Source: Ustulina deusta
Taxonomy: Eukaryota > Ascomycota > Sordariomycetes > Xylariales > Xylariaceae
Direction: 5' to 3'
NCBI GenBank assembly: GCA_023159155.1
Contig: JAJNNX010000009.1
Location: 806,001 to 870,000, forward strand
DNA length: 64,000 nucleotides
The notes under the pieces are model-generated. The model was not told the DNA's origin. It saw only the letters and a list, made by a program, of their open reading frames with translations, and did no database searches. The position numbers were made by a program, and so were the translations under genes. Within the stretch, counting starts at the first letter, position 1, and every line of letters starts with the position of its first letter. Shown here one piece after another: positions 23,766 to 43,923 of the stretch.

Positions 23766-26700
23766 TTATTTCGCGTACGGCAGAGACCAGATCTGTTTAT
23801 CATTCTCAAGGATCACCACATCCCCATTATCCTGTAGCACAAACTCCCTCTTCGCAGTATTCCCGCCCGCGCTCGTGCCTGAAGCCCAAGGAACAGGTGG
23901 CCAGTCGTCAACGTATAGCACGACATTGCCGTCTCCTTGCACCACGAGTTTCTTCGGCTTTTTCCCGTACGATCCACTCGCCCACATGGCCCGCGTGTCT
24001 GGACTCATGCGGTACAGGACTAAGTTGCCGTCGCCCTGGTTGATGAGCTCGTAGTTTCCAGTCGGCGATCTGAGTTTTTGGTTGGCATACATGCTCTCGC
24101 CTGTGCTGATGCGATCTCCGAGCGTCTTGGGCAGTGTCCACACCACATCCGGATCTGTATCCTTCTCATTAGTGGACTGCGTGAGGAACAATAGACCCTG
24201 ATCATTTAGCACAAGCCTCTTCGCTGCCGAATTCCCCTCGCGCCAGATCGTTGGCCCAGTCACGGTACTGCGAAGCTCGAGGTAGCCGTCTGGCCCAAGG
24301 AGCAAGAACCGCGCAGGCTGGTTTGAGTTGGCATTCTGCGCCATTCGGGCGATGGTGCTGATGCTGCGGCCCGAATCCCGGGTGATTTTGAAGTCGCCAG
24401 CTTCGGTGATGGTGAACGTGTATTCGCCTGACTTAGAGGTGAGGCTGTGATTCGCGGCGAGGATTTGACCGGCGCGGAGGGAGCGGCCTGCTTCGGTGTA
24501 TGGTTTGCCTTCTTCGATACATGGGAACTGTTTGAGGTCAGCGCGAACACGTTAACAAAAGCGGGTGACTTACGCTAGTATTTGATGACCACTTTCTCTT
24601 CCCAAGATCCTCATAGTTGTTTGGATCAGCTCCCGTGGCTAAGATACTCAAGTTGCCATCGTTGTTGAGATGTAGCATTGAGTCCGAGTCCGCGATGAAA
24701 GGACCCCAGAGAGGCTTGCCTGCCGTGTCAAACATGGCAATGTCGAACTTGATCCCACCAAAGCACACCCTTGATACCGAATTTGATGTCTTGCCGTTGC
24801 TCCAGATGACCGCACTCGATGATTCGCGGCGTATGATCAGTTGTCCATCGGTAAGGATAAGGAGCTTGAACATGCCGTTTGCCGACGTCAGCGTCGAACT
24901 TCTCTCTAACGACTCCCCTGCACGTAACCTGTCCGATGGTTGTTTGACAGGAGTGAGCTACAGAAGGTTAATGTATTTAGGAATCCATGGTTTTGGTGCT
25001 TCACTTACGTCCAGCGGCTCATATAGTTGGATAAGTTTCTTTTCATTCGACCAAAGGATGATACCATCCGACTTGAAGACCAAGTTGCCGTCATTCTGCA
25101 ACTCAAGGAAGTCTCTCCCTCCAGTCTTTCGTCTTCGAGTATCGGTGTTCCATCTACAACTACCACCCTTCAGGAACCAATTCAGATTGTCGTCATCGCC
25201 AACTATCATCCGATCGCCTTCTCTATCGCCTCTCCAGTTTCTCCATGCAGTATTTGAAGACCACTTGACTCCACCCGGGCCGTACGTGACCAGGTTGTTG
25301 TCTTTCTGAGGACAGAATCTGTACTTTTCATCTGGCGACCACAAGTTTTGGTCTGCCTCTAATTGTCCCCCGTACTTCAACTTGTTCTTCTCCGAGATAG
25401 GCTGCAGCTGCATGGTATTTGTCTGCCAGGCAATAGTACCGTCGGGTCGAAGGATGACTGCATTGCCATCTTCGCGCAGAACAAGCGATGACCCTGCGTT
25501 TTCATTGCTGGCTGTGTGCGACTCCCATTTGGTATGCCAAATGGACGATTGAACGATCAGATTGCCATCCTTCTGCATGGTGACATGGTCATTGCTGAAT
25601 CGGTCATCCGGCCCTTCAGCCCATAGAGCTCGGACGTCGGCGCTCTTTTCGTCGATTTTGTCAAGCCGAAACTGCCACCGCTCATCTAGCTTGAAGCGGA
25701 ACGAGATGTTGGTCGTGCCAGGAACGGTCGACTTCACGATCAGGTACTCGTCCACACCTAAACGATCTCCCGGACCAAGTTTGTTGCTAATTGGGCGTCT
25801 CTTCCCTTCAGCACCCACCCATACTCCTTCGCATCGTTTAGTGCCGCGCTCGTAGTCGATCACTGGTCGGACATGGAACCATACGTTTGACCAGCGCACG
25901 AACTTGGTGTCTATCTGCTCATGGGACATTTCATCCTGTTTCTTTGTCCCTCGCCACGCATCGCCGTGGTTTGGATCGCTGGTCGGGCTGATGGAAACAT
26001 CCCACTTGAGTTGTTTGTGTCGCATAAATTCTTGCATCTCAGGCTCGAGATTCTTGGAGACCTTGCCGTACCAGTCACCGTTGACAAAAGGACCGTTGAT
26101 ACTCACTGTCGGCTTCGCATCGATGAAGGGGATCTTTGTGAAGCGCGCAGCGAACTTGGCATCCAGCACGAACAGCGTTACGGGCGTCCACTTCTCAGAC
26201 GCGATATGGTTGTCATTTTCTTTATAGTTCGCCCGAATCCACGCATAGCAGTTCCCATTCTTCCACTGATCGTAGTAATTGTAGTCCGACGTCGCCAAAC
26301 CAATCATTCTACTCATGATATTGCCCTCTTGTGGATTCCACTCAAGTGAAGCGCGAGAATCATCACTGGGATACACATTCTGCGGGCGGATAGTCTCTTC
26401 CCAGACTACGTGCGAGGTGTCCCGATCAGCCCAGGTGTTTTCGTCGTGGAGAAACGTTCCTGGCTTTGGTCGGCCCCACCAAATCTCGACTCGTCCGGTG
26501 TTGGGTAGGTAGACGCCGATGATGGGGCTAGCTTGGTTGAGGCGGTGGCGAAGGTAAGCGAGTAGCTCGGCTACGCGGGAAGTTCCTGTTTGGGCTGCTT
26601 TGGTCAGATCTGCCTGCGTGGTGCGGTACTTTGCAAGCTGTGATGCAGTGTCCGCTTTAGGATTTGCTTCCAGATCTTTGATCATGTCTTCCAGAACCAT

Positions 26701-27159
26701 CTTGCGGGCGGATACGATCGTGTTGAAGGCGGTCACGTTCCTGCTGACCTTGCAGTAGATTGGATGTGCTTTCTGCATGACAGGCGCAGCTTTCACGTCT
26801 GCGGTGTCTTTGTCTAAATCTGCCATCCATTTCATGATGTTATCGTCTGGCACAGGAAGTCGGCGACTAGCTTCTAGAACGTTTGGGGGCATGATCTTCC
26901 GGCTCAATAGCGTGGTGACAATCTCATCAGACCACTTCGAGGCATCCATGCCGCCAAACAAGGCAGACGAGAACTCCACTGAACCTAGGATTGCCTTTCC
27001 CAGTCTTGGCTCGATAAGACTCCTCATCTCCTGTGCTTTACCAACTTCATTCGCGATGCCATCAACCTTCAATCTCGACTTGTTCATCCAATTATCGTTG
27101 TCAAGTTTGTAGACAATCTCCAGACTGACCGTCTTGTCTCCAACAGCAAAAAGGAACAT
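23766..27159 (-). CDS. B-lectin (bulb-type lectin) repeat protein, main part
   Basis: Three exons read leftward: 27159-25009, 24957-24574, 24527-23766; both introns (51 and 46 nt) have GTAAGT donors and keep phase 0, giving 1,098 residues from the ATG at 27159. The first ~440 residues are of unknown fold and include a Lys/Asp/Glu helical stretch and a Trp-rich part (VEIWWGRPKPG). From about residue 445 onward come bulb-lectin-like modules, with starts such as LGPGDRLGVDEYLIV, DRLRAGESLERSS, AGRSLRAGQILAAN and LGDRISTGESMYANQ. Two perfect mannose-binding motifs QxDxNxVxY are present (QGDGNLVLY, QGDGNVVLY) and several decayed ones (MQKDGNLIVQ, LREDGNAVIL, LQNDGNLVFK). No signal peptide or membrane helix seen. 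The frame is open upstream to a TAA only 12 bases before the ATG, so this may be the C-terminal part of a larger gene shared with the next entry. Divergent from the giant gene at 29230. Confidence 0.8.
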
Positions 27160-27171
27160 CCTGGCGTACAG

Positions 27172-28395
27172 TTATACTCTCATGATAGCATTGAATGGAT
27201 CTTGAGACCCTTCCAAGCTCTGGATGACTACAAACGTCCGACCACGGGCAGTCACTTTCTTGTCGAATGTCAGACCTGGTAGTTGGCCCAAGTCAGGCTG
27301 TAATGTCTTAGTCCCATCGCTGATGATGCTGGCGTAATCGATGTCAGTCAGATCCTTTTCGTAGAAACCACTGGTAAAGGCAAAGCCATTCTCGTCTAAG
27401 GAAAGCGGGATGGATTTGTCGCCATGCTTCATCGTCGCAACACCCTCGACCGACAAACTTGGAGCGTCGATACGATTGCGTTTGTAGTCGAAGTTGATGG
27501 CCTGAATCTCGATTTGACCCTCTTTCAGTGGAACCCGGTCTATCCTATCGACGGGTTTTGGTACGATGCGTAAGGTCCATGTTTGAACCTGGGCTGTAGC
27601 ATCGTCAGACTGCCCCTTTTGGGTATATGCGAAGTTTGTCACGACCAGCTGTTTTGTATCTAGCTTCTCTGTGACGAGAGGTCCGGTGGCAAGTTCATTC
27701 GGCAGGCGGAGTTTGAGGGTGTTGGCGACACTGTCTTCGGACTGCTGCGTCAATATTGCGAGCGTCTTGATGATCGTAAGTGAAGAAAGGTCCAGCTTGA
27801 TAGGAGGATTGCTTCGCGGTGCTAGGAAGGCAAGCGCTTTGGCAAGACCTTGTTCTTTTCCGGGTCCAAGTCCAGTGTCGAGTTCTACCGTACGTTTAAC
27901 ACCGAACGTCAAGAAAGACACACCCTCCTTCAGCGTCAGTGACAAGTTGACGTTTGCTTTATTCTCGTTCTGGACAACAACACTGATAGATCCACTATGT
28001 AGCTCGAGGGCGTTTCCTTCAATGGCTGCCTTGGGAGGAGTTACGCCGGCCGAGAACTCAAGGTCAATTCCTTCAACAAGGGACTCGGTGTTGTTTTCAT
28101 TCGTTGTGATTGTGCTATCTTTGTCTTTGATGATAGTGTTGTTGAGCGCTGATGCCATCCATGTTGGGAGATTCAGATCCTGAATGAATGTATTCTTCAG
28201 ATCGCCAGAGTTAGATGGAAATATTTCGTTTAGGACTGATGGAACACTTTCGCCCCCTGCATATTGGCCATCAAGAGCCTTATCCAACGTTTCCTTCACA
28301 TCTCTAGAGGAAGCATGAGGCATATTGATGGTAAGACGCTGACCTGTCTCTTGGATCCAGTCAGCCAAGCTCTGGGAGTGACTGTCGTATTTCAC
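27172..28395 (-). CDS. Upstream segment of the B-lectin repeat gene (ends at an in-frame TAA)
   Basis: Open frame of about 407 codons in the same frame as the B-lectin gene and separated from its ATG by only TAA plus four sense codons. The protein is beta-rich and hydrophilic, with patches such as SISVVVQNENKANVNLSLTL, VSFLTFGVKRTVELDTGLG and LTFDKKVTARGRTFVVIQSL; I do not recognise a named family, although the style resembles the beta modules of the giant neighbour. The first codon of the open frame is GTG and an in-frame TGA precedes it, so translation starts either at the ATG at 28323 or in a short upstream exon (an ATG at about 28514 starts a plausible one). Either one protein is made with the next segment, through a 48 nt intron (27161-27208, weak GTCTCA donor) or stop readthrough, or the TAA is a real nonsense mutation. 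Confidence 0.6.
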   Translation of the reverse strand: MKYDSHSQSLADWIQETGQRLTINMPHASSRDVKETLDKALDGQYAGGESVPSVLNEIFPSNSGDLKNTFIQDLNLPTWMASALNNTIIKDKDSTITTNENNTESLVEGIDLEFSAGVTPPKAAIEGNALELHSGSISVVVQNENKANVNLSLTLKEGVSFLTFGVKRTVELDTGLGPGKEQGLAKALAFLAPRSNPPIKLDLSSLTIIKTLAILTQQSEDSVANTLKLRLPNELATGPLVTEKLDTKQLVVTNFAYTQKGQSDDATAQVQTWTLRIVPKPVDRIDRVPLKEGQIEIQAINFDYKRNRIDAPSLSVEGVATMKHGDKSIPLSLDENGFAFTSGFYEKDLTDIDYASIISDGTKTLQPDLGQLPGLTFDKKVTARGRTFVVIQSLEGSQDPFNAIMRV

Positions 28396-29229
28396 AATTC
28401 AGGACTACAAGAAGTGGCAAGTGCATCACCTGGACTCGTGGAGCAGATCATCAAAGGCACAGAGTACATTTTCAGCTCAACGGTTGAATGGTTCGGCGGG
28501 TATCGCATCGACAAGTAAATTTGCCACCGCCACCTGAGCTCACCACCCATCCCGCCATCGCGCCGCTCCTTTTTTCAGCATCAAAGTACGAAAACGGCCC
28601 CCTGCAAGCGACAGCGTTATCGAAAATGGCGCATCACTAGCGCCCATCAGTCTCAGTAAGGCGCGGCGCACGAACCTCTTGCATAGTGCTTGTCCCATTT
28701 AGGCCCACCACTTTGGCCCAGAACTCCCAAAAGCGGAACATCCAACCCTTTTGGTCTGCAGTCTTCCCAAGCTGAACACCAAGGCTTTTTGGTTGCATGT
28801 TTTGGGTAGAGAAGGGCCATGCACGACCCGTCCCCGCGACCTGGTCTGGAAGCGATATGCGGCCCTATGCAGGGGAATGCTGAGCTTTCAGGCGACATCG
28901 ACCCTGATGTTCAGCTCCACACCCTTTGGGATACGAGATGGGAGCGAGACGGCGCGTCCTGTGCTCAAGTAAGGAGACGATGGAGGTCTATACCAGCGCT
29001 CATTGCGTCGATGAGATATCTTTGGCGAAAATAGTGAACACTTTCCTTTTGTTCAAGCTGAACGTCGATCCACCTTGATTCGATTCTAGCAAGTAGGATT
29101 GAGCAATCCTTTCAGCTTTCCTGTGTCAGACGATCCAACTTGTTCCTCATACGCACTCACAACCCGCTCATCGACATGCTCTTTCATCTTTAGAGTTTCC
29201 AGCGTTTGTAATTACAATCAAACTTCAGC
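28396..29229. other. Divergent promoter region between the two lectin-type genes
   Basis: About 830 bases separate the leftward B-lectin gene from the rightward giant gene, so the two probably share regulatory DNA. A short first exon of the leftward gene may lie within 28400-28515. No open frame of note and no clear TATA box near either start; the giant gene's ATG has a good context (CAGCATGG). Confidence 0.5.
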
Positions 29230-32200
29230 ATGGCGCTGGCAGTGGTCAAGCTCCACGTCGTCTTTGCTGGACGTGGAGATGGCCTCATTCTAGAGGTTGA
29301 AGACAATAATGTTAATCGGAATCGTCGACTTGTTGTCGTTGATGGAGGGCCAACAAGTCATCGGCACGCTGCCAATGGCGGAACAGCCGGTGCACCATAC
29401 TCTCGCTATCTCATGGCAGCAATGCGACGTATCTGGGGAGGAACTGGACCGATACAGGTGGCATCCATTTTTAATTCACATCCAGACGACGATCACTACA
29501 AGGGATTACTTGACCTGGTAGCGAACAATATTCGTCGCGCGGATTTCGCACTTCAGAACAGTTTCTTTGTCCCAGATTGGCCAGGAGATGATTCATACAG
29601 GGAAATTCAGGCACTACTACTCGGTCTTGGGTTTCGCGCCAAACATGACACGGCAGCGGCTATCACGTCCACACCCTTTATCCAAATCAAATATCCGGAA
29701 GGTCTCTCCTTACGTGGAATCATCAATTTCACTCGCGTGGTGCCCCCAAATCCCACCGTTCAACCTCAATTGGACGTTGATTTAACGCTGAAAAAACTTG
29801 ACAAGGTCAAAGACAAGAATGATAGCAGTATTCTCATGGAGGTTGTGCAAGACCCAAACTCGCAACTACGAGCCATCATGTTCACCGGTGATGGCGAAGC
29901 CAAAAGAATCAAGCAGTATGTCAAATATAAAGCGCTCAACAATCTAAATCAAATGGCCGAGTTCAATCGACATTACAGCATCTACAAGCTCCAGCACCAC
30001 GGATCGCAGGAGAACCAAGACAAGAGTTGGGACACAGTGAATATAGGCATCCCACAGGCCGTTTTGAATGAGTTTGTCATCTACTACTTGGCATTTCAAG
30101 GGCCAAACAGCCTGTTACCACTCTGGGATGACGGGAACACGCACGTCACTGTGATAGACAAGTTGCGGGAATATGTTCTTGGTGACCTGGTCTCACAAGG
30201 TCCGGGTCTAGCGCACTGGCAGACGGTGTTGCGGAATCGACATAGAGAATACATTCGTCAACTCATCGATTCGACAAGCAACGAGCCCACTCTGACTTAC
30301 ATCAATGATGCGAACCCAAACGATCCCAATTTCAACAACCCGATTCACCTAGCACAGCCCTGCATTACCAAATTTATAGCGCAGTACTTGGAAGATATGT
30401 CCGCCATCCAGAACCACGATGATCTGACTCCCACTCAACGAATGATAGATTACGAAATCGCCTATGACGACCTTGAGGAAACCGTATTCACAAGTGGTCG
30501 CTGGATCAAAGAAGAGCAAGACTGGTACTGGAACTACTTCTGCGGGACCACACATCTGATGTTCAGCTGGGCGAATCGGTACGCAAAAATCGCCCAGTTC
30601 TATCGTCGCTTCACAGCCGATTCCTACGTCGTTAGTGGCTCGGCTTCCGTTCACGGCCATCCTACTGTTGCAGTCGTCACAGGTTTGGCTTTGGCACTCG
30701 CAACCGACAACCGTGGAGCGAATCTGTACATGACGGACCCAGGTATGATGTTCGCTCGCGGTCTCTGGAGGGATGGTCGTGGAGCAAATTGGCCCGATCT
30801 ACCGACTGCTGTGCAGATCATTGGAAGGGACCTCAATGACCTGTTTACGGGAAACAACTTGAACGTTCGGTTCCTCAGTCACGACTACTACATGACCTTG
30901 AACGCAGACATTGGTCTCATTGGTCAGCGAGATCGAGAGTTCGTCAATGATGTCAAGTCGACACAGCTCATTCAATTTGGCAACTCGGATGCCCAGCGAG
31001 AAATCTACGAGCATTTGAAGAAGAACGCAAATGTCCTGCCCCATGCCAACGCAGGTCGTCTTGACCGCAAAACGTGGCAGGTTGTGTGCGACCTGCGACT
31101 GAACAACGCCATCCAGAGACATTACCTCTGCTTCCAATTTCTCCAAGGTGGTGGGGTTGGACCGCATTGTGCACAGGTTCTGACAAACCTACATGTGCAA
31201 GAATTCTTGGGTGCTTTTCCCATTGGTCAAAACCCCTTGGGCGAGGGCTTTAGAATTCGCGTCAGCGACAACAATCAATTCAATCCTCACCTCGACTACT
31301 ATCTGCATAAATTGGAGGAGAACAGGATCACCTATTGGCGGATCCAATGGCTGGACAACCAGAACAACGTTTGGAGTTTCTATCTCCGAAATGGTGGCGT
31401 GGTTCCATTAGCGGAACAAGATGTTCTAGCAACTGACTTGATACTCAACTTTACGGTTCTTCAGACGCCTGCCACGATCAATGCTCAGATTGCTGCCAAC
31501 ACCATCCCTCTGCCTGTCCAAACTGCTACAATGGTTCCAGTGAATGGACAGAGAGCAGCACGAAGTGTGGCGGATAATGCGCTCTTTGACGCCAGAGAGG
31601 AACCCAACGAGGCTGCCATTGAAGAGGATGAAGCCGTGATCTCTCTGCCATCTGATGTCGAGCCGTCAGCAAACGTTACCGATGATATTGCGCCCTCACA
31701 AGACGTAGATGGCTCCGTAGTAGGCGACGCTCAAGTTCCGGAGCGAGATGGAGAGGAGGGCCAAACATTCACTCTAGCTGTCTCGCCAAGCGATGAACTA
31801 GCGATACCACAAATAGCACGACAAGAAGTCTCGTCGAGTGTATTAGGTCCACTTACTGAGAGCATGATGCTCAGTCATTACCTCGAGCTTCGCTCATTCG
31901 ACCCTTCAAAAGTGCTCACCCGAGCTAATGCATTGGAGGCGTTATTGGGCAAGTCGAATGCTCGTTTGGAACTAGTCACCCGGCTGGAGGTGTACGAGAA
32001 AATCTTGGCTGCCCCTCTGGACGTAGAGAAATCGACAGTGGCGTATCTCACGAAAGAAGAGACTGGGTTTGACTTTACTGAAGCCTCGCTTCCTGAAAAG
32101 GGCTCAAGTGCGACCAAGGTCCGCATCGTAGATAAGGAATATGAGGTGAGAAGCTTAGTGTTGACCAGAAAGGATCTGTTGCTTGGTTTGCAGAGCGATC

Positions 32201-35200
32201 TGAAATCAGCTGATGGGAGTGAAATGACAATCTCGACTGCGGCAAAATTGGTCAAACGCCTCCCATCAATGCGCGACTTTCTCTTGACTGCCGGAGCAGA
32301 GATGGAGAAGATGTCAGAGGTATCGGTGTCCACGCTCTTCTCCTTCATCTTCAAGAGTGAGAACAAGGCAGCAGAGCTTCTTTGCAGTGCCATTCCGAAG
32401 ACACTAGCCAAAGAATCTTTGGGGCTGCTGAAACCCGACCTGGACAATGCAGAAGTCGCTTGGGATCAAACACCCTTTGGCGATGTTCATCTTACGTATG
32501 CCCAAATACCTTGCACCATCACTAGAATATCAGCCCTCCCACAACTTGATCTGTCCGTTGTAAAGATCGAGATGACCCAACTCGGATTCCAACTCACCAA
32601 TCTGGACAATCGAGATGAGAAGATTGCTCTCGCTGCTACTGTGAAGATTCAAGCCAGCGGTGCAGACTCGGGTGCTGGACTCGAACTCAAGTTGCGGTTG
32701 GAGATGACGGATCATCTCGCCGAACTTCAGTTCGTGGCCCAGAATGTCAAGTCCTTGGTCGACATTGCCAAAGCTATTTCAGTTGACTCAACCGAACTCG
32801 AAAAGATGCCGGTCCCACTCACAAAGCAGTCCAGTGCGAATAACACTGACACTAAATCATTTTCCTCTTTGGGATCTCTGAGATCAAAGTCAACATCGAT
32901 CGGCTTCTCGTTACGAGAGACTGGCAAGGGGAGCGGGACTTTCTCTCTGTCTAGCATCTTCATTGCGATAGACTTCAATGACTGGACGGAGTATTTGCCA
33001 AAAGAACTCAAAATTGACTCAATCGAGCATCCAAAGACGGCAATCACGATACTAGACCCCACCGACGCAAAGTTGAGACGCATCAAGGTGGATGCCGGGT
33101 TCCAATATCTATTCGATACAGTCAAGACTACGGTACCCGGTCACGATCTTGTCGTCGAGACGAAACGATACATTGGATTCAATGTTACTGCCATTCCCAT
33201 CGCCGGCTTGCCAGACTACGACTTCCAGCTTGACATGTTTTGTGAAACCGGTCTCAGCGTTCAAGACGTCCTGCGGGTTGTAGGCTTGGATCTACGTACG
33301 GATCTAAAGAGCTCGTTCCCGCCCCTTGACAGTCTCTTGAGCGATGTCAAAATGAAGCGACTTTCGATCGGAACGGAACTTGCGACGGGTAAACTTCAAA
33401 TCACCGATTGGACGATTGAACTCTTCGTCAAAGAGATGAAGATTGTCCCAGAGGAGTTCGTGCTCAGCAATCTAGAGCTCACTATTACAAAGTCGTCTGC
33501 CGGGCTGTACGTGTGTGATGGATCCTCTGTTTTCCACATCAAGAAGAATCAATTCGACAAGTACTTCAAGGTTTCGTGCAGACTGCCTCAGCCTACCCTC
33601 GCTGGCTTCTTCGAGGTGCAAGCTCCACTCGGACTCGAGCTCATGGATCTTTTCAAATGTTTCGACGTCGATCTTGCAAGTGTTCCTGTTATCAACGACC
33701 TTTTTACCATACAGCTCAGGCAGTTTCGCATCGACATGGGATACAAGAGTGAAAAGGGGTCTAAGCTCTCCGTTATGGGCGTATCTGCAAAGCTAGAGAA
33801 GGAAGAACTTGCCATTGAGGTGGCTGACAAGAGCTTAAAATTCACTGACCTCTCATTGTCCTTCGCCTGGTTCAGTGCAGATTCCTCTTCTACAGATAGT
33901 GAAGCCATTAAGACATTCACGGCCAAGGCGACACTTCCTGGAGGCTCGTACTCAGTCGCAATCGGTTACACCTCCGTAGAGTCCGCTTTGCTGATCGAAC
34001 TCCTTCCGATGGATAACAGCAACTTGGGTGATCTACTGCGCAACGTCCTCTCCACAGAGATGGCAGATGTGGTCCTCCCCGTTCTTGGCGATTTGGCGCT
34101 GCAGGAGGGCTCTCTGCTCATCAACACCAAGGACAAATGTGTAGATCAACTTGACATCGTGTTTGGGCAGCACCATTCCGTTAATCTGGATAAGGCATCT
34201 GGTGCTCCGGTGTCAATTGCTGCGTTGGAGTTGCACTACAGTCGAAGAAAAGCGCCCAGCTCCAAAGCAATCACTGACGGGTCAACAGCCGCGAATGGCA
34301 CAGTCACAGCGACCAATGATGGCAAGCCTGAGGCTACAGACACCAAGGACAAAGATCAAAACACGCAGACCTCGCTCAATATAGCCGGAGTTGTCGCACT
34401 GAATGATCTTCGTGCCAAAGTCGAGTTCAAATACCTCCCTGCACCGAAAACAGCTCCTACTAAAGATTCCAAAGATGCTCAATATTCAAAAACGGGGTTT
34501 GGACCACCAAGTGGCAAGACAGATACCAAGCCTGATGACTCCAAGGAAGACAAACCCAAGACTGACAAAGACGGCCATGGTCAGATGTCCATTACTGTCT
34601 CCGCCGTGGACGAAAAGGCACTGACGCTTCGAAACTTTGCCGCTCTGTTCGGTCTAGGCGACGTGAAGATAGACTCACCTGATCAGAAGAGGTCTTTCTT
34701 GGACTTGACACTGAAGAAAGCAGAAGGAGTGGTCGATATCCTACCGTCTGCTTTGCAAGAGGATAAGACGAATGGCTCAAATTGGGGCAAATATGGTAAG
34801 CCAACGAAACCAGCGGAACCAGCGAAGAAGGGAAAATTCCGCTTCTCATTTTTCGAAGTAGTGGTGGAATCGTTAGAGGCCTTCACTTTGATCGAATCCA
34901 GCCCGCCGATCCAACTGGACAAACTATTTTTGAAGTTCACGTACAAGAAGGTAGAAGATAGCAGCAAGAAGCCCGTTGAGGGTAAACTCGTGGATTCGAA
35001 AGACGTGTCAAAGGACAAGAAGCCGCAAGATACTTCAGCATCATCAACGTCTGGTTTCGAGGCACTGGTCTATGGCTCCTTCATGATCTCCACGCAGCAC
35101 ATTGAAGTCGCCTACAGCAAGACCAAGAGACATGGTTCTGCTTTCATCGGCCGCTGGTCTCCTAAAGACGCTACTGACAAAGAGAAGAAGGATCTCGACA

Positions 35201-38200
35201 TCGGTGACTTTGCGGACAAGTTCCTGGGCAAGGCGGCTACCAGTACCGACAAGCCGAAGTTCAATTTCCCTACGGACCTCAACTTACCGACGAAGAAGAC
35301 CGTTGCCAATGCTAGCTTCGTCTTCGTGCCACGCAAATACCTCGAGTTAGCGTTCACGGGAGAGAGCTTGTGGGAGGGCCGCTTCGGTGATGACTTGAAC
35401 TTCAAAGTTGATCGTCTTGGAGCGTACTTTAAAGTCAGCAAGTCTGCCATCGAGCTCGGGGTTCCGGCTGGCAAGCCCGAAGAGAAGAAGAGCCGGAAAG
35501 AGGGTGAGAAGAAAGAGAACACTGAGACCAACGATAAGAGCACCGCCAAACAAGAGGACAAGAAAGAAAAGGACGGTAAGTACAAGTTCGAGATCCACCT
35601 TCTTGGCCAACTCACTATCAGCGATTTCACGAGCGCGCAAGCCCGCCTCGACATCTCACCAGACAAGAGCAAGACATTCATTGCCACGATTGCGAAGAAA
35701 CCCCAACCAAGCGTTGGCCCCGACGACGCGTCCGGCCTTGCTGGCGACATCGTCAAGTCCGATACAACAAACAACTGGGACACACTCGTCAAGTCTACTG
35801 GTACGAAGCCATTCGTGTTCGAAGGCAGTGTTCTTCTCTTCATCGACTTCACTGCTGCTCGTCTCGTTGCTACGGGTACATTGAAAGATTTGGGACAGTG
35901 CGTCATTCTGGGGAAGAAGATGCCTGGTGAAAAGAAGGACAAAAAGAGCAATTACGGCTTCTATCTCTCGCTCGTTGCTCAGAACGTGGAACAGATTTGG
36001 ACTGGGCAGAAAGACGACGTCGCTGATGTGTTCAAGATCAAAAAGCTGGCGGGCCAGTTCGTGTCGTATGACACCACCGTTGAAGGTCTTATGGATGATC
36101 TCAAAATTGCCAAGATCGATGACGGTGAGAACAAGGAAGACTTGCCAACCGACGTCATCGCCCTTGCGGATCAAGAGGAGAAGCCGGACGAGAAGAAACC
36201 AGAGCCGAAGCCAAACACTGGAAACGAAGAAGAGACAAAGTCACTTGTCACCAAGATCAATGATGATACCAAGGCAATCACACCAGGTGCATGGTTCTTC
36301 GCAGATTTAGCCTTCCCAACCTCGTCAAGCTCCAGTAGTTATTCACTCTCATCCAGCTTAGCGCTCGCCACTGTCGACAAAGACGCACCGAATGCTCCTA
36401 CTCAGCCCCAACCGGGTAGACCCGCGCCGACGCTCCTCCTGTATGCCTGTATCATGAAAGATAAAACTCAAAGTATCTATGGCATTCGCATTGACAACGT
36501 CGTCCTCCTCGGTGGCAAGATCCGCCTCAGCGGTGGTGGTAGTTATCATCCGGGGGACAAAAACGTCAAGGGCTCACGAAGGGTGGACATTGAAAAGGCA
36601 AGATTGGAAATCGAGTTCAGCGAAAAACAGAAACTGGACTTGAACGTCGACTTCCATTTTGATGAGACAAGAACGTGGTTCACTGCCCGAGCTGGCGGCT
36701 GGACGTTGCGTGAACCTTTCGAAGGGATGTTCAACGTCGAACTTGTCAATATCGGTGCGGATGGCTCCTTTAGCAAGACGGAACAGACGGTCACGATCTC
36801 AGGCAAAGTCAAGTTCGGTAACGGAGCCGAGGAGAAGCATATCACAGCCATGGTGTTGTTTCAGAAGTGCCGACCGCGTGGCGTCTATCTCAAATACGAC
36901 AACACACCTGAAGCAGAGTTGCCTGTAGGCGACTTGTGTTCCGAAGTTCTATCAAGCCCATCGGATCCAGCGGACAAGAGAGTCACCTGGCCGGACACGC
37001 ACCCCAACTTTGCATTCCAGTCGGCTACGATCTACTACATTGCTGCTGGTCCAGTCGGCATGAAGTTGGACAACAAGGATCTGGTCGTCGGCTACCATCT
37101 TGAGGCTTCAGTATATCTTTTCGACAAGCCCTTCGATCTCCGCCTCGACATCGGTGCCTCCAAAGGCAAGGGTGTCACATTTACGGCAGTGTACAAGGAG
37201 ACTCTGGATCTCGAAATTGTCAAACTCAGCGGATACAAAGACTTGGTAGCGAAGACCGAAGAGAAAGGACCGGCCATCTCTGTTAGTACCACCCCAGCGA
37301 CGGGAAGCAACAAGTCCAATAACGTCACTCTCGAGGTCAAAGCCGGAGTCAGTATATTTGATTGCGACTCGATTCCAACCGAAATGTCGTACGAGACGGG
37401 CACCAAGAGCTTCTTCGTCAGTTTGACACTGCCAGCGAACTTCCTCGGCGGTACGGAAGCGCACCCTGTTGGGTTCAGATATAAGAACGGACGATGGTCG
37501 TTTACCGGCATGAAGGTCGACGACGAGTTCTCCGGTATCATCAAAGACGTCGAAGAGCTCATGAAGGAAGGATCGAAGCGAAAGAACCCGGGCTGTGGCG
37601 CATTGGTCAAGTTCGTCTGGAAGTCACTCATCAAGGGCAAGTGGAACTTTGGGCTTTCGCTGCCTGAAAAGGATGATAAGCCCGAAACCGACACTGACAA
37701 GAACTCAAAGAGGGACATTATTGGCGGAAAACACAAATCCCTTCTTAATAAAGATGGTAAGACTGAACTCGCGGTCAAGATTGCCTACAACGTGGTGACC
37801 CGAGTCGGCGAGTTGCCCGTCATGAGTGTCATCTTCAATGACTTCCCTCTCCTCGTCGAACCGAAGGTCAAGAAAGGCGAAATCTGGGACTACCTTTCCA
37901 AATTCGTGACCGAAAACGCTGAAAACCTCGCTGACAAGCTCGCCACTGATGGCGAAAATCTGACAAAACTGCTTGGTGTGTTGTTGGTGGATCAGCTCGG
38001 TCCCGAAATCACTGCCGCATTGATCTGTCGAGGCGCCAAGTCAAACCAGCTGGGTAACCGGGGAACGCAGAACATGAACAATGGATCGCAGGCAGCCAAA
38101 AAAGCGGCCGAAGAGGCCTTCAAACAGGCAGCGAGAGCCGCTGCTGCGGCCGCGGCCGACGCAGCTGTCGCTGGTGGTGCAGCTGTGGCAGGCGAAGCGA

Positions 38201-41200
38201 TCTTGACGGGTCTTGCAATCCTGGCTGCAGCGATACTTGCCTTGGTCATCATCATGAAATTGAAAGAGGCGATTGACAAGCATGGTACTCCCGAGGAAAA
38301 GAAAGCGGCTCAGGATGCGGCTGATGAGGCGGACAAGAAGATCAAGGAGGCCCAGGCGCAGCTGGAGGAGGCTAAGAAGAAGCTGAAGTTGGCCATGAGC
38401 ATCATCTCGGAGATTCCAGTCTTCCAGGTCAGCCTTGATGATTTCAAGAAGACGGTTCTGGAAGTTGACTGGAAGACGGTTGTTCCGAAGTGCTTGGAGC
38501 CACATCCGGATAAGGGGAAGCCAGATGTGACGTGGATTGTCGAGGTTGCCAACAACGACAAGTTCGAGAAGTCGGTCACCAAAAGAATCAAAGATGCCAC
38601 GTCATACATCTTCGAACAAGCAAATAGCGAGTGGCAATCTAGTTCACACTTCTTCGTCCGAATCAAAGCATTGTTATACGCGAAAGCGACCGCCGATGGA
38701 CAGACTAAGGAGGAGACGATGGAAGCGACGAACTGGAGTTCTGTGAAGACTATAGATCATTTGCCCTTCCTCAAAACACCGACAAGCGTGTTCTTGGCCC
38801 CTGGGAATGAGAGCGATGCGGCTGTCACTGTGGAAAAGACTGTGGAAAAGGTGGAAGTGGTTGTTGCCGACAAAGAGCCTGTCCAAGGAGCATTGTCGCT
38901 CTATTCCGCGGTCCTCACACCCGACGCGAAGGATGCCGCAAATTTCAAAGTACCAAGCGTCCACCTCGTGGCTCCAGAAAACTATCCGAACATCGCAGTG
39001 GTTGGTAGTGTAAGAGCGTTTGTGAGAAGCGTGCCAGCGGATACGTCTAAGGCTCGACCCTCGGAGTGGGTTAGCTCCCTTCCCCTGCCCATCACCAATC
39101 ATGCCACCAAAGTCGTAGCCAATTTGGACGGCGGAATGGTCAAAGCAACATGGGACGCTATATCTCACGCCACTGCCAACCCGTTGGTATACTTCATCAA
39201 GTCAGACACTTGGACACCCGCATTTCAAATCAAGGTTGAAGCGGCTGGTACTGGCCGTGCAGCTCGGTTCTTTGCTCCAAAAGAACAGGTCAAGCAAGGA
39301 GACAACTTCACTATTGCAGTGTGCGACAGTGACATTCGCCCCGGAGCTTTGGCTGTCTTCTCGAAGACTTCCACGTCGTTGACAGCGGACTTTCTGCCGA
39401 TTCACACAGTTAACGAAGCCGATACTTACCTGGATCTGGAGAGGAATGTTCTACTGGTATATTACACAATGCCTTATACCACTAGGCTTTCGCTCGACCG
39501 TTATGTTAAGGCGAGCTATGCGAATGGCAAGCAAAAAGATTGGAAACGTGAGGGCGGTTCCGACGGTGATCTAACGCTACGCGGCTCTCTCGAATTTATA
39601 GATATCAAAGCCCCCATCAATGCCACGTTACAGATTGTCGCCAAAGACGAAGACACCAAGATCGAGAAGGTTGGCCCGGCTTGGAAGTTGGTAATTCCGT
39701 ACAGTAAGTTGCCAGTGCCGAGTCTGTCCGTATACTCTATCACTTCGCCATCGCCCTCAATCAACATTTCCTGGATGCCATTGCGACATGCTCCGAGTGT
39801 GAAAGTATCCATGATTGCCAAGACAAGCGCCGGTGGAGAGATGCCTATCGAGAAAGACGTGCCAGCAGGACAGTCCTCGATCACCCTGAGCCCTGCTTCT
39901 GGTCAAACGTGGGACTTCAAGGTCGGGACGACGTTCACGGTGCAGGCATCAGCTCGAGGAAAGAACGCGCTTGGAAAGGCAGTGGAGTTGCACTATGTCG
40001 TACCAGATGCCTCAAAGGATGCCATCGCCCAGGATGACAAGCCACTACTCGAAGATTTAGCGGCAGACTCCGGCGTCCATGTCTCAGGCCTTCAACCCAC
40101 AACATCGAATTCCCTGGACCAACAAGTCTTCTGGACTCACAGCACAAAGGACGGCCTCATCGGCATCCAAGGCCAGACCGCTGCGACACGCAAACGCGTC
40201 GTCATTGCACCCTCTTTACTTGCTACACCGCCACATAAGCCAGAAGACTTGATTCACAAAGGCGCCGGATTTGCTTCCGCAACCCTCAAGAACGGCCAGG
40301 AATACATCTTCTGGGTCGACACCAAAGGCGCTATCCAGGCCCGGCGCTGCATCCCCACCGCCACCGCAACAGACGCTCGCCAATACAAACCCCTGTCCGA
40401 TTTTCCCTTCGAGGCCGCCGGCACCACCTCCCTCACCGCAAGTGGTATCCTCGCCGCCACTGCCGAGGTCACTGCTTCCACCGACAGAGCCCAGCGCGTG
40501 CATCTCTGGTGGCTAAACAGCTCCAATGAGCTAGTTAAGGCGGTGTACACTCCCAGCCAAACCCCTGAAAATGAAGATGGCGAGTGGACTGACCAAGACT
40601 CATTCGTCTCTGGAGTAATGGCTCCTGCGCCTACATCTTATCTCGCTGCGCAATCCGTCATCGCCGAGTCGGTCGACATCTTCTGGATCACGACGGCTGG
40701 TCGTCTGTACGGCATGAACAATGGAAACATGTACTCCGTCGTGGATCCGGACCGCGGCATCGACAGGGTGGACAACGCCAGTCCAGCCAGCCGCATTGCC
40801 ACGGTGGCGACGGGCCAGGGCGGGTTGATGCTCTGGTGGGTAACAAAAGAGGGCGCCGTACAGATGGCGACACGATCCGTCACCGCCGGCGTCACGGGCT
40901 GGAACATGTCGCTCGTCGCCGGGCCCGGCAGCGCCGCGCCCGACTCCAACGTAGCTGCAGCAATGATCAAGCGAGCGAATCCGCCTAGTCCGGCTCTGGT
41001 GGGACCTGAGCCGAGGGTGTGGTGGTTTGGGCCGCACGCGGAGCTGTTGTGTGCGAGGTCGGAGAGAGATAAGGCGGACACGGCGTACTGGACAAGGTAT
41101 GTCCAGGTAGAGGCTGTGGCGGGACGGAAGAGGAAGACGGTTGTGGTGAGAGGGGACGAGAAGGGCACCGGGGCGGATGTTTGGTATAGCAAGACGGATC

Positions 41201-41232
41201 AGATTGTCGGGGTTTTCAATTTTTCCCAATAG
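29230..41232 (+). CDS. Giant (4,000 residue) protein: ComEC-like metallo-beta-lactamase fold, beta-rich modules, lectin-like beta-propeller
   Basis: One uninterrupted exon of 4,000 codons. Residues ~1-330: metallo-beta-lactamase fold with H84-P-D86-D-D88-H89, F218-TGD and H256-HGS, the motif set of ComEC/Rec2-type metallohydrolases. Residues ~430-760: unrecognised alpha/beta region, then an acidic linker (~790-875). Residues ~1070-2890: long beta-rich modules separated by Lys/Glu/Asp linkers (~1675-1790, ~2080-2120, ~2315-2340); they could belong to a large DUF such as DUF6603, unchecked. Residues ~2950-2977 are Ala-rich, ~2978-3010 form a membrane-length hydrophobic helix, and ~3023-3061 a coiled coil. 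Residues ~3090-3590 look Fn3-like. From ~3616 a beta-propeller has seven repeats with an aromatic pair before a [G/N]-x-[I/L/V] turn (near 3632, 3691, 3757, 3816, 3865, 3929, 3982), as in fucose/PLL-type lectins. No signal peptide. An intact frame of this length implies selection. Function unknown. Confidence 0.9.
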   Translation: MALAVVKLHVVFAGRGDGLILEVEDNNVNRNRRLVVVDGGPTSHRHAANGGTAGAPYSRYLMAAMRRIWGGTGPIQVASIFNSHPDDDHYKGLLDLVANNIRRADFALQNSFFVPDWPGDDSYREIQALLLGLGFRAKHDTAAAITSTPFIQIKYPEGLSLRGIINFTRVVPPNPTVQPQLDVDLTLKKLDKVKDKNDSSILMEVVQDPNSQLRAIMFTGDGEAKRIKQYVKYKALNNLNQMAEFNRHYSIYKLQHHGSQENQDKSWDTVNIGIPQAVLNEFVIYYLAFQGPNSLLPLWDDGNTHVTVIDKLREYVLGDLVSQGPGLAHWQTVLRNRHREYIRQLIDSTSNEPTLTYINDANPNDPNFNNPIHLAQPCITKFIAQYLEDMSAIQNHDDLTPTQRMIDYEIAYDDLEETVFTSGRWIKEEQDWYWNYFCGTTHLMFSWANRYAKIAQFYRRFTADSYVVSGSASVHGHPTVAVVTGLALALATDNRGANLYMTDPGMMFARGLWRDGRGANWPDLPTAVQIIGRDLNDLFTGNNLNVRFLSHDYYMTLNADIGLIGQRDREFVNDVKSTQLIQFGNSDAQREIYEHLKKNANVLPHANAGRLDRKTWQVVCDLRLNNAIQRHYLCFQFLQGGGVGPHCAQVLTNLHVQEFLGAFPIGQNPLGEGFRIRVSDNNQFNPHLDYYLHKLEENRITYWRIQWLDNQNNVWSFYLRNGGVVPLAEQDVLATDLILNFTVLQTPATINAQIAANTIPLPVQTATMVPVNGQRAARSVADNALFDAREEPNEAAIEEDEAVISLPSDVEPSANVTDDIAPSQDVDGSVVGDAQVPERDGEEGQTFTLAVSPSDELAIPQIARQEVSSSVLGPLTESMMLSHYLELRSFDPSKVLTRANALEALLGKSNARLELVTRLEVYEKILAAPLDVEKSTVAYLTKEETGFDFTEASLPEKGSSATKVRIVDKEYEVRSLVLTRKDLLLGLQSDLKSADGSEMTISTAAKLVKRLPSMRDFLLTAGAEMEKMSEVSVSTLFSFIFKSENKAAELLCSAIPKTLAKESLGLLKPDLDNAEVAWDQTPFGDVHLTYAQIPCTITRISALPQLDLSVVKIEMTQLGFQLTNLDNRDEKIALAATVKIQASGADSGAGLELKLRLEMTDHLAELQFVAQNVKSLVDIAKAISVDSTELEKMPVPLTKQSSANNTDTKSFSSLGSLRSKSTSIGFSLRETGKGSGTFSLSSIFIAIDFNDWTEYLPKELKIDSIEHPKTAITILDPTDAKLRRIKVDAGFQYLFDTVKTTVPGHDLVVETKRYIGFNVTAIPIAGLPDYDFQLDMFCETGLSVQDVLRVVGLDLRTDLKSSFPPLDSLLSDVKMKRLSIGTELATGKLQITDWTIELFVKEMKIVPEEFVLSNLELTITKSSAGLYVCDGSSVFHIKKNQFDKYFKVSCRLPQPTLAGFFEVQAPLGLELMDLFKCFDVDLASVPVINDLFTIQLRQFRIDMGYKSEKGSKLSVMGVSAKLEKEELAIEVADKSLKFTDLSLSFAWFSADSSSTDSEAIKTFTAKATLPGGSYSVAIGYTSVESALLIELLPMDNSNLGDLLRNVLSTEMADVVLPVLGDLALQEGSLLINTKDKCVDQLDIVFGQHHSVNLDKASGAPVSIAALELHYSRRKAPSSKAITDGSTAANGTVTATNDGKPEATDTKDKDQNTQTSLNIAGVVALNDLRAKVEFKYLPAPKTAPTKDSKDAQYSKTGFGPPSGKTDTKPDDSKEDKPKTDKDGHGQMSITVSAVDEKALTLRNFAALFGLGDVKIDSPDQKRSFLDLTLKKAEGVVDILPSALQEDKTNGSNWGKYGKPTKPAEPAKKGKFRFSFFEVVVESLEAFTLIESSPPIQLDKLFLKFTYKKVEDSSKKPVEGKLVDSKDVSKDKKPQDTSASSTSGFEALVYGSFMISTQHIEVAYSKTKRHGSAFIGRWSPKDATDKEKKDLDIGDFADKFLGKAATSTDKPKFNFPTDLNLPTKKTVANASFVFVPRKYLELAFTGESLWEGRFGDDLNFKVDRLGAYFKVSKSAIELGVPAGKPEEKKSRKEGEKKENTETNDKSTAKQEDKKEKDGKYKFEIHLLGQLTISDFTSAQARLDISPDKSKTFIATIAKKPQPSVGPDDASGLAGDIVKSDTTNNWDTLVKSTGTKPFVFEGSVLLFIDFTAARLVATGTLKDLGQCVILGKKMPGEKKDKKSNYGFYLSLVAQNVEQIWTGQKDDVADVFKIKKLAGQFVSYDTTVEGLMDDLKIAKIDDGENKEDLPTDVIALADQEEKPDEKKPEPKPNTGNEEETKSLVTKINDDTKAITPGAWFFADLAFPTSSSSSSYSLSSSLALATVDKDAPNAPTQPQPGRPAPTLLLYACIMKDKTQSIYGIRIDNVVLLGGKIRLSGGGSYHPGDKNVKGSRRVDIEKARLEIEFSEKQKLDLNVDFHFDETRTWFTARAGGWTLREPFEGMFNVELVNIGADGSFSKTEQTVTISGKVKFGNGAEEKHITAMVLFQKCRPRGVYLKYDNTPEAELPVGDLCSEVLSSPSDPADKRVTWPDTHPNFAFQSATIYYIAAGPVGMKLDNKDLVVGYHLEASVYLFDKPFDLRLDIGASKGKGVTFTAVYKETLDLEIVKLSGYKDLVAKTEEKGPAISVSTTPATGSNKSNNVTLEVKAGVSIFDCDSIPTEMSYETGTKSFFVSLTLPANFLGGTEAHPVGFRYKNGRWSFTGMKVDDEFSGIIKDVEELMKEGSKRKNPGCGALVKFVWKSLIKGKWNFGLSLPEKDDKPETDTDKNSKRDIIGGKHKSLLNKDGKTELAVKIAYNVVTRVGELPVMSVIFNDFPLLVEPKVKKGEIWDYLSKFVTENAENLADKLATDGENLTKLLGVLLVDQLGPEITAALICRGAKSNQLGNRGTQNMNNGSQAAKKAAEEAFKQAARAAAAAAADAAVAGGAAVAGEAILTGLAILAAAILALVIIMKLKEAIDKHGTPEEKKAAQDAADEADKKIKEAQAQLEEAKKKLKLAMSIISEIPVFQVSLDDFKKTVLEVDWKTVVPKCLEPHPDKGKPDVTWIVEVANNDKFEKSVTKRIKDATSYIFEQANSEWQSSSHFFVRIKALLYAKATADGQTKEETMEATNWSSVKTIDHLPFLKTPTSVFLAPGNESDAAVTVEKTVEKVEVVVADKEPVQGALSLYSAVLTPDAKDAANFKVPSVHLVAPENYPNIAVVGSVRAFVRSVPADTSKARPSEWVSSLPLPITNHATKVVANLDGGMVKATWDAISHATANPLVYFIKSDTWTPAFQIKVEAAGTGRAARFFAPKEQVKQGDNFTIAVCDSDIRPGALAVFSKTSTSLTADFLPIHTVNEADTYLDLERNVLLVYYTMPYTTRLSLDRYVKASYANGKQKDWKREGGSDGDLTLRGSLEFIDIKAPINATLQIVAKDEDTKIEKVGPAWKLVIPYSKLPVPSLSVYSITSPSPSINISWMPLRHAPSVKVSMIAKTSAGGEMPIEKDVPAGQSSITLSPASGQTWDFKVGTTFTVQASARGKNALGKAVELHYVVPDASKDAIAQDDKPLLEDLAADSGVHVSGLQPTTSNSLDQQVFWTHSTKDGLIGIQGQTAATRKRVVIAPSLLATPPHKPEDLIHKGAGFASATLKNGQEYIFWVDTKGAIQARRCIPTATATDARQYKPLSDFPFEAAGTTSLTASGILAATAEVTASTDRAQRVHLWWLNSSNELVKAVYTPSQTPENEDGEWTDQDSFVSGVMAPAPTSYLAAQSVIAESVDIFWITTAGRLYGMNNGNMYSVVDPDRGIDRVDNASPASRIATVATGQGGLMLWWVTKEGAVQMATRSVTAGVTGWNMSLVAGPGSAAPDSNVAAAMIKRANPPSPALVGPEPRVWWFGPHAELLCARSERDKADTAYWTRYVQVEAVAGRKRKTVVVRGDEKGTGADVWYSKTDQIVGVFNFSQ

Positions 41233-41650: not shown

Positions 41651-43923
41651 TTAGATTAAGCATACAGTCTTGTTATCGCAGCCCTCAAAGATACGCAAAC
41701 CAGCCTGGCCTTTTGGGTTCGAGAAGAAAATACCTGTACGGTAATATGTCCTCGCGCAAGCAGGCACATCTTCGTCACGAGCAGCAGGGCAGATGATGAG
41801 CCCCCATGCATATCTTTGATCTTTTCCGAATGGGCCGTCTTCACGTTTCTTAATAGCGCTACCAAGTAGCAATAGGTCTAACTCGCGGTCCGAATCGTCA
41901 TTCTCCTCATCCCAGTCGAGATTGCAATCGGCCAAGTAGCCCCCCTCTAAGTCTTTGATCTGCCAACAAGGAGTAGTGAATACGCCGTCATGAAAGCGCT
42001 CTGGCAACAACGGTATTCTCCTGATCCGAGACGTTATTGTCAGTGATGCTTTTCGATCTGGCCGTAAAGATTCGCGCCAGTACCACTTTGATCGATACAT
42101 GGCTCAACACTAACATATTCGGACCGGTAGTCTCTGTAGGCTCCCATTCATATGAAAGTAGCGGTGGCCATTTTCGAAGCCGAGATCTTGATTTGCCCAG
42201 CTCCAGGACGGCGCTATGAATTGCTGGCTAGAACGCTGAGGTCCAAATAATTCATCAAACATTTGACGCTCCTTATTATTCATTGTCCAGAACAACTGCC
42301 GATGCAGATCTTTTTGCCAGAGACCTGCGAGTATTGGTCATCTACGTCGAGCAGACCTTTGAAGTAACCCGCAAGACCTGCCAGGGCTGGGAACTTATCC
42401 GTTGGATAAGTGAGTTGCCTGCTAGAATATTCCGAAGCCCATTCCATCCAATGATTATAAGCAAGTTCGAGGTTCAGATGCCCTCCAATTGCGATGCCCG
42501 TCTCGAGGAAAGAAACGGCAGGCACATCACAAGGCTGGTACTTCGTCTCACCTTCGCTCATGATGCCCTTGGCGCTTATGGTATGAATTTTCTTCTTTCT
42601 AAAACAAAGTAAGACTCGAGATAGGTGGTATTCCTGAAAAGTCCACGCCCTAGTTGCCCAGACACCTTCACCCAAGTCTTCCAAATACAGATATCCTGTA
42701 ACGAGAGGGTCGGTGAGGCCTGGTACGCTGTACCGAATCGTGTTGTGACCCTCAATATCTGGACTTACGCGGGACCTGAAGGGGATATCGATTCTACGAC
42801 TCCGTTTCTCGAGGAACCCCTGTGAATGAGAACTTGATGACACCGAGCATATCGTCACAGTAGAGTTCCGATACACATTAGACATTTGTGCAGCTTCTTG
42901 TTCCCAATCTACCTTGTCATCTTAGATTATGCACACTGCGTCGACCCATAGATACCTAATACCAAGAGCTTTGCAGACGTCTACGGTGTCTTTGGTGACA
43001 GAGGTGGCCCCGGCTATATCAATTTGAGCTAGCCGTTGCTGTAAAGTCTCCCGCGTAGTCTGATACTGAGAAGCTGCTTCGACTTGTGAACCCCAGCAAT
43101 AACTCAACGCAGCGTATTCTGGTCGAGCTTCCATACTTCGTAAGTCAGTAGCAAGCACAAGTCGCGGAAGTCGACCCTGACCACCGACTCCTACATCTAT
43201 TAAGCGAGTAGGCAAGTATCGATCATCTCGCTTGACTCCGAGGGACACAGCTTCTTGCTCAGACTCATTCAGAAGCCTCTTGATCCATGCAACGTTTTTT
43301 GAGTTCATTGCATCGCATTCGGATGATGTCTCTAGCCGCAACCACCTGACGCAAGGCGCTAAGATTATCTTTAGCCATGATAGCGTCCCTTCGGTCCTTG
43401 GAAAACAATAACAATCACGGTAACGCAAGGCGAACATACCAGAGCTCGAATCAATGCCAAACGAAATGGTTGGGCAAGGCAGAGGTTTTTGACCAGTTAC
43501 GGACATGAAGTTGACTTGCAACAATAGAGCTACGAGGCCTCTATCTGGGAACATTGAGGAAACTTCCGGATATAGGTAATCCGCGAATAGACTCCCCCAT
43601 AGATAAGAGATCTTGAGGGTGACTCTGGCGGCACCATCAGGCGGCTCTAGCTTAGCCGTCAATATGGATTCCCTAATGTAAGCGCAGCAGATGCAGCCGG
43701 TCAGCGCTGACTCGGCGAGGGATGGTAGGTCAGGATACAAGTCTTCAAAACAATATTCAGTCTCGAAATGACGTCGAGTAATTTTTTCGTCAAATGCAAG
43801 AAATCTACTTTCTCCAGGCCGGTCGGACCTATAGCCCCCCCAAGCCTTGTCGTCAATGAGGAGAAGCCTGCAATGGCGACAAAACTGGCTGACTTCTGAG
43901 TCATTATAGAGCTGGCGAGACAT
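41651..43923 (-). pseudogene. HET-domain (heterokaryon incompatibility) gene, broken
   Basis: In other fungi HET-domain proteins trigger programmed death on recognition of non-self. Reading leftward from the ATG at 43923, a 333-codon first part holds HET motif 1 (YAALSYCWG) and motif 2 (GIRYLWVDAVCII). The family continues CIIQDD, but here the codon after CII is TAA (42924-42922) and the next residues are DDK, so a Gln codon CAA has probably become TAA. The frame then continues with MSNVYRNSTVTI and motif 3 (ATRAWTFQEYHLSRVLLCF). A one-base loss near 42331 shifts the frame so that AGLWQKDLHRQLFW and PSWSWAN are read in another frame, and two further frame changes are needed near 42115 and 42055 to follow the C-terminal part (EYVSVEPCIDQSG, then ASLTITSR). 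At least four lesions, so a pseudogene unless there are sequencing errors. Confidence 0.82.

Follow-up and report, generated by a model that had tools for sequence, protein, structure and literature searches.

A predicted 4,000-residue protein of Ustulina deusta combining a ComEC-like metallo-beta-lactamase head, a large insert and a lectin-like propeller

We describe a single 4,000-codon open reading frame (ORF) in a 64,000 nt stretch of the genome of the wood-decay fungus Ustulina deusta (GenBank assembly GCA_023159155.1, contig JAJNNX010000009.1, positions 806,001 to 870,000 of the forward strand; this whole stretch is called the window, and coordinates below refer to it). Judging by its sequence, the encoded protein, P0001, begins with a ComEC-like metallo-beta-lactamase (MBL) head in which an insert of 175–190 residues separates two metal-ligand motifs, continues through a middle of about 2,000 residues and a hydrophobic helix, and ends in a region that appears to resemble PLL/AAL-type lectins. 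We propose that the insert is a lid over the active site; the protein as a whole may be a lectin-triggered effector.

The original prediction, made from the letters of this DNA, had claimed one open frame of 4,000 codons, and the claim was exact: the frame runs from ATG to TAG within a stop-free stretch of 4,006 codons. The remaining five frames over the same bases contain 100–251 stops, and the probability of 4,000 open codons is ∼2e-81 from base composition alone. The guanine plus cytosine (G+C) content of the ORF is similar to that of its surroundings in this genome of 56 Mb (123 contigs), and its last tile has a coding-like composition (G+C of 0.59, 0.52 and 0.68 at the three codon positions). 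A predicted single exon is compatible with the DNA.

A full-length protein search (about 5.8 billion proteins, 1,835 candidates scored) gave two matches, both fungal. P0002, recorded as U. deusta, differs from P0001 at 17 of 3,275 positions (residues 1–3275); P0003, a protein of 3,500 residues from a metagenome-assembled genome of Sclerophora amabilis (class Coniocybomycetes), has 40% identity over P0001 residues 6–3487. A search with a two-sequence profile of the head returned one protein from 7,993 scored candidates: P0004, a separate protein of 682 residues on a 3,822-base JGI contig, with 26% identity to the head and an alignment that extends to about residue 635. Such searches need common short words and score the best candidates only, so distant or differently modelled relatives may escape them. 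The parts of P0001 are as follows.

29230..41232, forward strand: the whole ORF, 4,000 residues, ATG to TAG, 99.5% identical to P0002 over residues 1–3275
29230..30015, forward strand: first part of the MBL core, residues 1–262, with HxDxDH at 29479–29496, Asp221 of TGD at 29890–29892 and HH at 29995–30000
30022..30609, forward strand: helical insert, about residues 265–460, between HHG and HP, from motif spacing and helices in a low-confidence model; proposed active-site lid
30610..30954, forward strand: last part of the MBL core, residues 461–575, VVSGSASVHGHP, with HP at 30658–30663
30955..31599, forward strand: probable beta domain at the end of the head module, residues 576–790, from strands in a low-confidence model
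31600..31929, forward strand: acidic, weakly conserved linker, about residues 791–900, with 22–26% identity to P0003 per 50-residue bin
31930..38034, forward strand: orphan middle of about 2,000 residues (about 901–2935), mostly with beta-type hydrophobic periodicity
38062..38409, forward strand: long Ala/Lys-rich helix-like region containing the most hydrophobic 21 residues, 2991–3011 (38200–38262)
38410..40014, forward strand: beta-rich region, residues 3061–3595, with fibronectin-III-type repeats by eye, P0003-like up to residue 3487
40102..41229, forward strand: seven-motif lectin-like beta-propeller, residues 3625–4000, from a motif test, a CV39L match and Foldseek

The insert, the orphan middle, the hydrophobic helix and the lectin-type and HET neighbours described below go beyond the original prediction.

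The metallo-beta-lactamase head and its insert

All the metallohydrolase motifs that had been named from the sequence are present (H84-P-D-D-D-H89, T219-G-D221 and H256-H-G-S259), and H477-P478 is present too. The head thereby has HxDxDH, TGD, HHG and HP in the order that marks the ComEC-like superfamily. Residues H84, D86, D88, H89, D221, H256, H257, H477 and P478 are shared unchanged by P0001, P0003 and P0004, while P85, D87 and S259 differ in P0004. Such identity of the metal ligands across three heads that have otherwise diverged makes it probable that catalysis has been kept.

The spacing of these motifs defines the insert. From the first His of HHG to HP there are 221, 206 and 215 residues in the heads of P0001, P0003 and P0004, compared with 30–32 in 24 of 24 bacterial sequences (31–32 in the 18 ComEC-like ones), where the HP position is the first match (HP in 21 of the 24, LP or RP in three) and where sampling from one phylum, with several near copies, means that the independent witnesses number fewer than 24. 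Between HxDxDH and HHG there are 158–172 residues in the heads, 110–133 in the 18 ComEC-like sequences and 197–255 in six Avs1a-type sequences. P0004 has the insert too, so it characterises these heads and is not proven to be a fungal trait.

A precedent for gating by insertion comes from HamM. According to PMC12799240, HamM has two insertions relative to a ComEC nuclease which, by prediction, block the active site, and a partner protease switches DNA cleavage on by cutting them; the same paper presents insertion-gated MBL pro-nucleases, in a recent (2025) description, as components that bacterial antiviral systems have in common. By word search, fungi are not mentioned in its main text.

Profile searches connect the head with several MBL families of this kind. 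Residues 1–857 match LmuA (8e-13), RTasMBL (6e-9), 6A-MBL (2e-5) and Avs1a (3e-5); the whole protein matches the first three at 1e-10, 2e-7 and 6e-4 and gives no match to Avs1a. With Avs1a, 6A-MBL, LmuA, RT-associated MBL and HamM the head also shares the HxDxDH form and additional sequence near the active-site motifs. We rejected membership in Avs1a, LmuA or 6A-MBL all the same. The head scores lie far under the curated NCBIfam cut-offs (23.7 of 220 bits for 6A-MBL, 22.9 of 420 for Avs1a), and the LmuA and Avs1a profiles are generic, each matching in 9 of 14 control genomes, including Bacillus subtilis; in one bacterial phylum the Avs1a profile finds matches in 370 of the 398 genomes scanned, and in one of the 398 the cut-off is passed. 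The tree, too, separates the heads from the Avs1a-type sequences.

That tree was built from 22 sequences (L024, L025, L026, L029 and L034 being omitted as near copies). The three heads form a clade of their own (support 100/100, branch 2.59), and the six Avs1a-type sequences, L016–L021, form another (99/99); only L016 scores over the Avs1a cut-off, the remainder being grouped with it by score. The MBL phylogeny that had been suggested as a check on the original prediction thus places the heads apart from bacterial ComEC-like and Avs1a-type MBLs but leaves their attachment point weakly supported (56/15). As a side observation, L016–L021 are the best Avs1a-model matches in the 398 genomes, at 103 to 458 bits with one of six over 420, which hints at sister families of Avs1a-like MBLs.

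Comparison of profiles in both directions clearly favours neither the ComEC-like nor the Avs1a-type side. A model of the heads gives 19.3–30.5 bits with the ComEC-like L011–L015 (all of them fetched for likeness to the heads), 10.5–17.4 with the Avs1a-type sequences and 3.0–11.3 with other ComEC-like ones. The reverse profiles give on the heads 20.6–32.8 bits (Avs1a-type), 23.3–38.0 (a mixed group including L011, L013 and L015) and 12.1–21.6 (ComEC). ComEC/Rec2-like and small ComEC-like MBLs have HxDxDH or HxHxDH, HHG and SxG...HP in the same order as the heads. In contrast to ComEC/Rec2, P0001 has its MBL beginning at residue 1 and lacks a competence-channel region, with the Competence family unmatched in the Pfam and NCBIfam profile scans. 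Taken by its sequence, the head is best described as a ComEC-like MBL on its own deep branch.

Middle, hydrophobic helix and propeller

After the linker (Asp and Glu make up 18% of residues 801–1000) comes the orphan middle, for which we found no Pfam family over cut-off, no NCBIfam match, no PDB chain by sequence and, in the protein searches, no relative besides P0002 and P0003. Its identity to P0003 is 34–66% per 50 residues, with the exception of three bins at 20–28%. Internal repeats were sought over residues 850–3490 and rejected, the best hhalign probability being 1.1%. DUF6603 proteins resemble P0001 in being large, beta-rich-looking fungal proteins, but an origin of the middle from this family was rejected as well: PF20248 is unmatched both in pieces of P0001 and at this locus in a genome search, and hhalign probabilities stay under 1%. 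DUF6603 does occur at two other places in the same genome (L004, 1,180 open codons, and L005, 1,113, both matching the family over almost its full length), and the family has matches in none of the 14 control genomes.

Residues 2991–3011 have a mean hydropathy of 2.64, the maximum in P0001; P0003 has its own maximum, 2.36, at its residues 2990–3010, so that the hydrophobic stretch is common to U. deusta and Sclerophora. The first 21 residues of P0001 reach 1.44, the P0003 maximum in the first 40 windows is 0.45, and in the alignment the N-terminus corresponds to the first MBL strand. In the beta-rich region 3061–3595 Pfam gives no fibronectin-III match.

The aromatic propeller repeats noted earlier proved to be seven blade motifs in the C-terminal part, at residues 3633, 3693, 3759, 3817, 3868, 3930 and 3984 (spacing 51–66). 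The blade pattern, which was written after inspection of the sequence, finds 8 matches, one motif being counted twice; the mean over 2,000 shuffles is 0.1, and none of them reaches 8. PLL/CV39L propeller lectins carry such motifs in 6–7 tandem copies, and the aromatic blade motif is a likeness to AAL/AFL lectins as well. The CV39L lectin family matches the propeller piece at 8e-4 and the whole protein at 0.049; the score of the piece, 18.5 bits, compares with a cut-off of 350, and P0001 further differs from PLL/CV39L lectins in that its propeller is part of a giant chain. In a Foldseek search with the low-confidence model, all 15 matches with E ≤ 1e-3 were Photorhabdus PLL/PHL or fungal AAL/AFL/AofleA fucose lectins, followed in the list by glycosidase and nucleoporin propellers; this supports a kinship of pattern rather than a proven fold. 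A propeller search of the genome itself returned this propeller only, and a search of plasmids returned one marginal match to a Streptomyces tyrosinase-family gene (29.9% across 31% of the query, E 0.07).

Distribution, origin and neighbouring genes

Among the searches made, the long form is known from two distant fungi, which fits a conflict gene. The search for the full architecture that the original prediction called for thus ended with two long fungal relatives, neither of which, as recorded, reaches the propeller. Its statement that it knew of no characterised fungal protein with this architecture agrees with our searches of open-licence PubMed Central papers, in which we found no description of the whole; passages of PMC12419801 likewise contain no such architecture. 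A query made of the final 1,819 residues gave no match among 7,982 candidates; because of its length limit it could list neither P0002 nor P0003, and the words it used were drawn from the first 500 of these residues, which makes it no test for separate propeller proteins. There are recognisable parts with known relatives; for the combination, for the insert outside the three heads and for the middle outside the two fungi we found none.

The ComEC-like MBL head and lectin-like propeller in one frame survive from the earlier interpretation; acquisition from bacteria, suggested there by the intronless state, is not supported. The heads form their own clade, the long relatives are fungal, the G+C content is like that of the surroundings, and supporting evidence was found neither in the tree nor in scans of prokaryotes, viruses and plasmids. 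The prokaryote scan (one genome per species, 84,980 species), run with two short peptide patterns, found 42 candidate stretches, of which one matched the head in part, at 29% over residues 6–132, in a 308-residue ComEC-like protein whose adjoining genes look housekeeping-like by eye. None of 77 candidate stretches in viral contigs matched the head, no head match was found in plasmids, and no P0004 match in phages. Of 398 genomes of one phylum, five gave marginal matches, four of them in frames of ComEC size. Intronless structure alone does not show transfer, and patchy presence in two Pezizomycotina classes fits loss or transfer among fungi.

The ORF lies between two genes on the opposite strand:

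23766..28398, reverse strand: divergent lectin-type neighbour, upstream, in open pieces 27172–28398, 24958–27171, 24538–24957 and 23766–24551
42283..43923, reverse strand: convergent HET-domain neighbour, downstream, HET at 8e-12 and 6e-9, over cut-off, in two open pieces

In the upstream gene, B_lectin is found at 31.7, 20.3 and 29.3 bits in pieces 24958–27171, 24538–24957 and 23766–24551, compared with a Pfam cut-off of 32.4. Its reading is broken by an in-frame stop at 27172–27174, by a second at the end of piece 24958–27171 and then by a frame change; these breaks are either introns or decay. Its pieces have no detectable relation to the giant protein. A six-frame genome-wide B_lectin search found this gene only (26.2 bits) and missed two of the three local pieces, so that others are possible. 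The adjacency of two lectin-type genes, one of them fragmented, suggests a common role and was noticed after the fact. In the downstream gene the HET domain is presumably split by an intron.

The transporter gene that had been contrasted with the ORF as multi-exon is real to the extent of Sugar_tr pieces at 20327–20899 and 21496–21927. Ordinary genes by Pfam elsewhere in the window are MutS (3961–6603, forward strand), a UbiA prenyltransferase (11172–12647, forward strand), an mRNA triphosphatase (51755–53791, reverse strand) and proteasome RPN2 (56756–59866, forward strand).

Proposed function and its alternatives

Our preferred reading is that P0001 may be a lectin-triggered, single-chain effector in conflict or self/non-self recognition, its MBL nuclease held shut by the insert; we give this reading a rough probability of 0.35. 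In such a protein the C-terminal propeller would bind a glycan, which the analogy with PLL and AAL lectins suggests would carry fucosylated or O-methylated sugars; the middle, rich in beta structure, would act as an extended scaffold, and the hydrophobic helix at about residue 3000 would anchor in or insert into a membrane. The ComEC-like MBL would be a metal-dependent nuclease, inactive while the insert sits between two metal-ligand motifs; binding of ligand, or a cellular protease that cuts the insert, would open it, and DNA would be degraded. The coupling of a predicted sugar-binding part to a predicted nuclease, already suggested in the original prediction, is plausible. Like fungal NOD-like receptor (NLR) and HET proteins, the giant protein is fungal and patchy in distribution, with an effector-type N-terminus and a repeat-type C-terminus and a HET gene adjoining; unlike them, it has no nucleotide-binding or HET domain with a Pfam match over cut-off.

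The more specific idea of a single-chain eukaryotic gated pro-nuclease, in which a lid-split ComEC-like MBL, orphan scaffold, membrane helix and lectin propeller would let glycan sensing release DNA cleavage with neither a separate protease nor a nucleoside triphosphatase (NTPase), is in our judgement improbable.

Several observations weigh against the effector reading. Unlike the defence MBLs, the head is fused to some 3,200 further residues and has its main insert in another interval, the extra residues of Avs1a-type MBLs sitting between HxDxDH and HHG and not between HHG and HP; no partner protease was identified, the Pfam scan of 18 other pieces of the window (unspliced open pieces, with many shorter ones outside the scan) showing no trypsin- or caspase-type protease of the HamM kind. 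The Pfam scan of the giant protein lacks NACHT, NB-ARC or any other known trigger domain, and Pfam MBL families give no match to the head. ComEC-like MBLs, moreover, are not necessarily nucleases. Profile searches and structure prediction of the segments, proposed as a check, returned weak profile matches and the list of lectins but models of low confidence, too poor to reveal either a lid or a propeller: that of the head, from three sequences, has a mean predicted local distance difference test score (pLDDT) of 39.9 and no PDB match with E ≤ 0.001, and that of the propeller, from one sequence, has a pLDDT of 40.8, with Foldseek TM-scores of about 0.2 and root-mean-square deviations of 15–22. 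HET domains are common, with at least 151 matches genome-wide, and adjacency to one is weak evidence by itself. Finally, residues 3488–4000 are missing from P0002 and P0003 as recorded, and we found no conservation of this part.

A rival explanation makes P0001 a phosphodiesterase, or a hydrolase of another kind, that is cytosolic or bound to a membrane and has a long structural scaffold; the propeller would be a protein-interaction platform and not a lectin, and there would be no conflict role. MBL folds carry out many chemistries, the LmuA and Avs1a profiles are as generic as the control genomes indicate, and propellers often bind proteins, non-lectin ones being next in the Foldseek list. 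However, the 15 best Foldseek matches are lectins, and a housekeeping gene would not be expected to be so rare in these searches; we regard this explanation as doubtful.

The order of the parts (enzyme, scaffold, hydrophobic helix, fibronectin-III-like region, lectin propeller) also recalls an outward-acting, toxin-like layout. The propeller would then be a receptor binder, the helix a membrane-insertion segment and the MBL a delivered hydrolase, released by lysis or non-classical export against competitors or grazers. PLL-type lectins come from an insect-pathogenic bacterium, and a second lectin-type gene adjoins the ORF. An N-terminus that is the first MBL strand, and the lack of a hydrophobic start in P0003, make this unlikely, although the start of P0001 is fairly hydrophobic (1.44); the helix, for its part, might just as well serve as a plain anchor or belong to a coiled coil.

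P0002 ends at the position equivalent to residue 3275 and P0003 at about 3487, both before the propeller. Since in-frame similarity to P0003 goes beyond the end of P0002, from 3276 to 3487, that end looks to be owed to the gene model, to the end of a contig or to a difference between strains; residues 3488–4000 rest on the open frame, the coding-like composition and the lectin likeness. A recent fusion or decaying gene, in which a propeller was joined to an older MBL–middle protein in this lineage only, maybe with no joint function, would account for these two ends and would match the stop-broken state of the divergent neighbour, yet 4,000 codons remain open, the last tile is coding-like and the recorded ends of P0002 and P0003 may be contig or gene-model ends, which leaves it quite unlikely.

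Whatever the function, a region of 2,000 residues common to two distant fungal classes, for which we found no other relative, is new ground, and the head, of about 790 residues, is small enough for direct testing. If the lectin-triggered effector reading is true, a fungal head with its own insert and a lectin would extend the gating principle to eukaryotes, and P0001 would be a candidate receptor of new layout for fungal self/non-self recognition. Should the single-chain gated pro-nuclease itself be true, fungi would have an immune or incompatibility receptor that belongs to neither the NLR nor the HET class.

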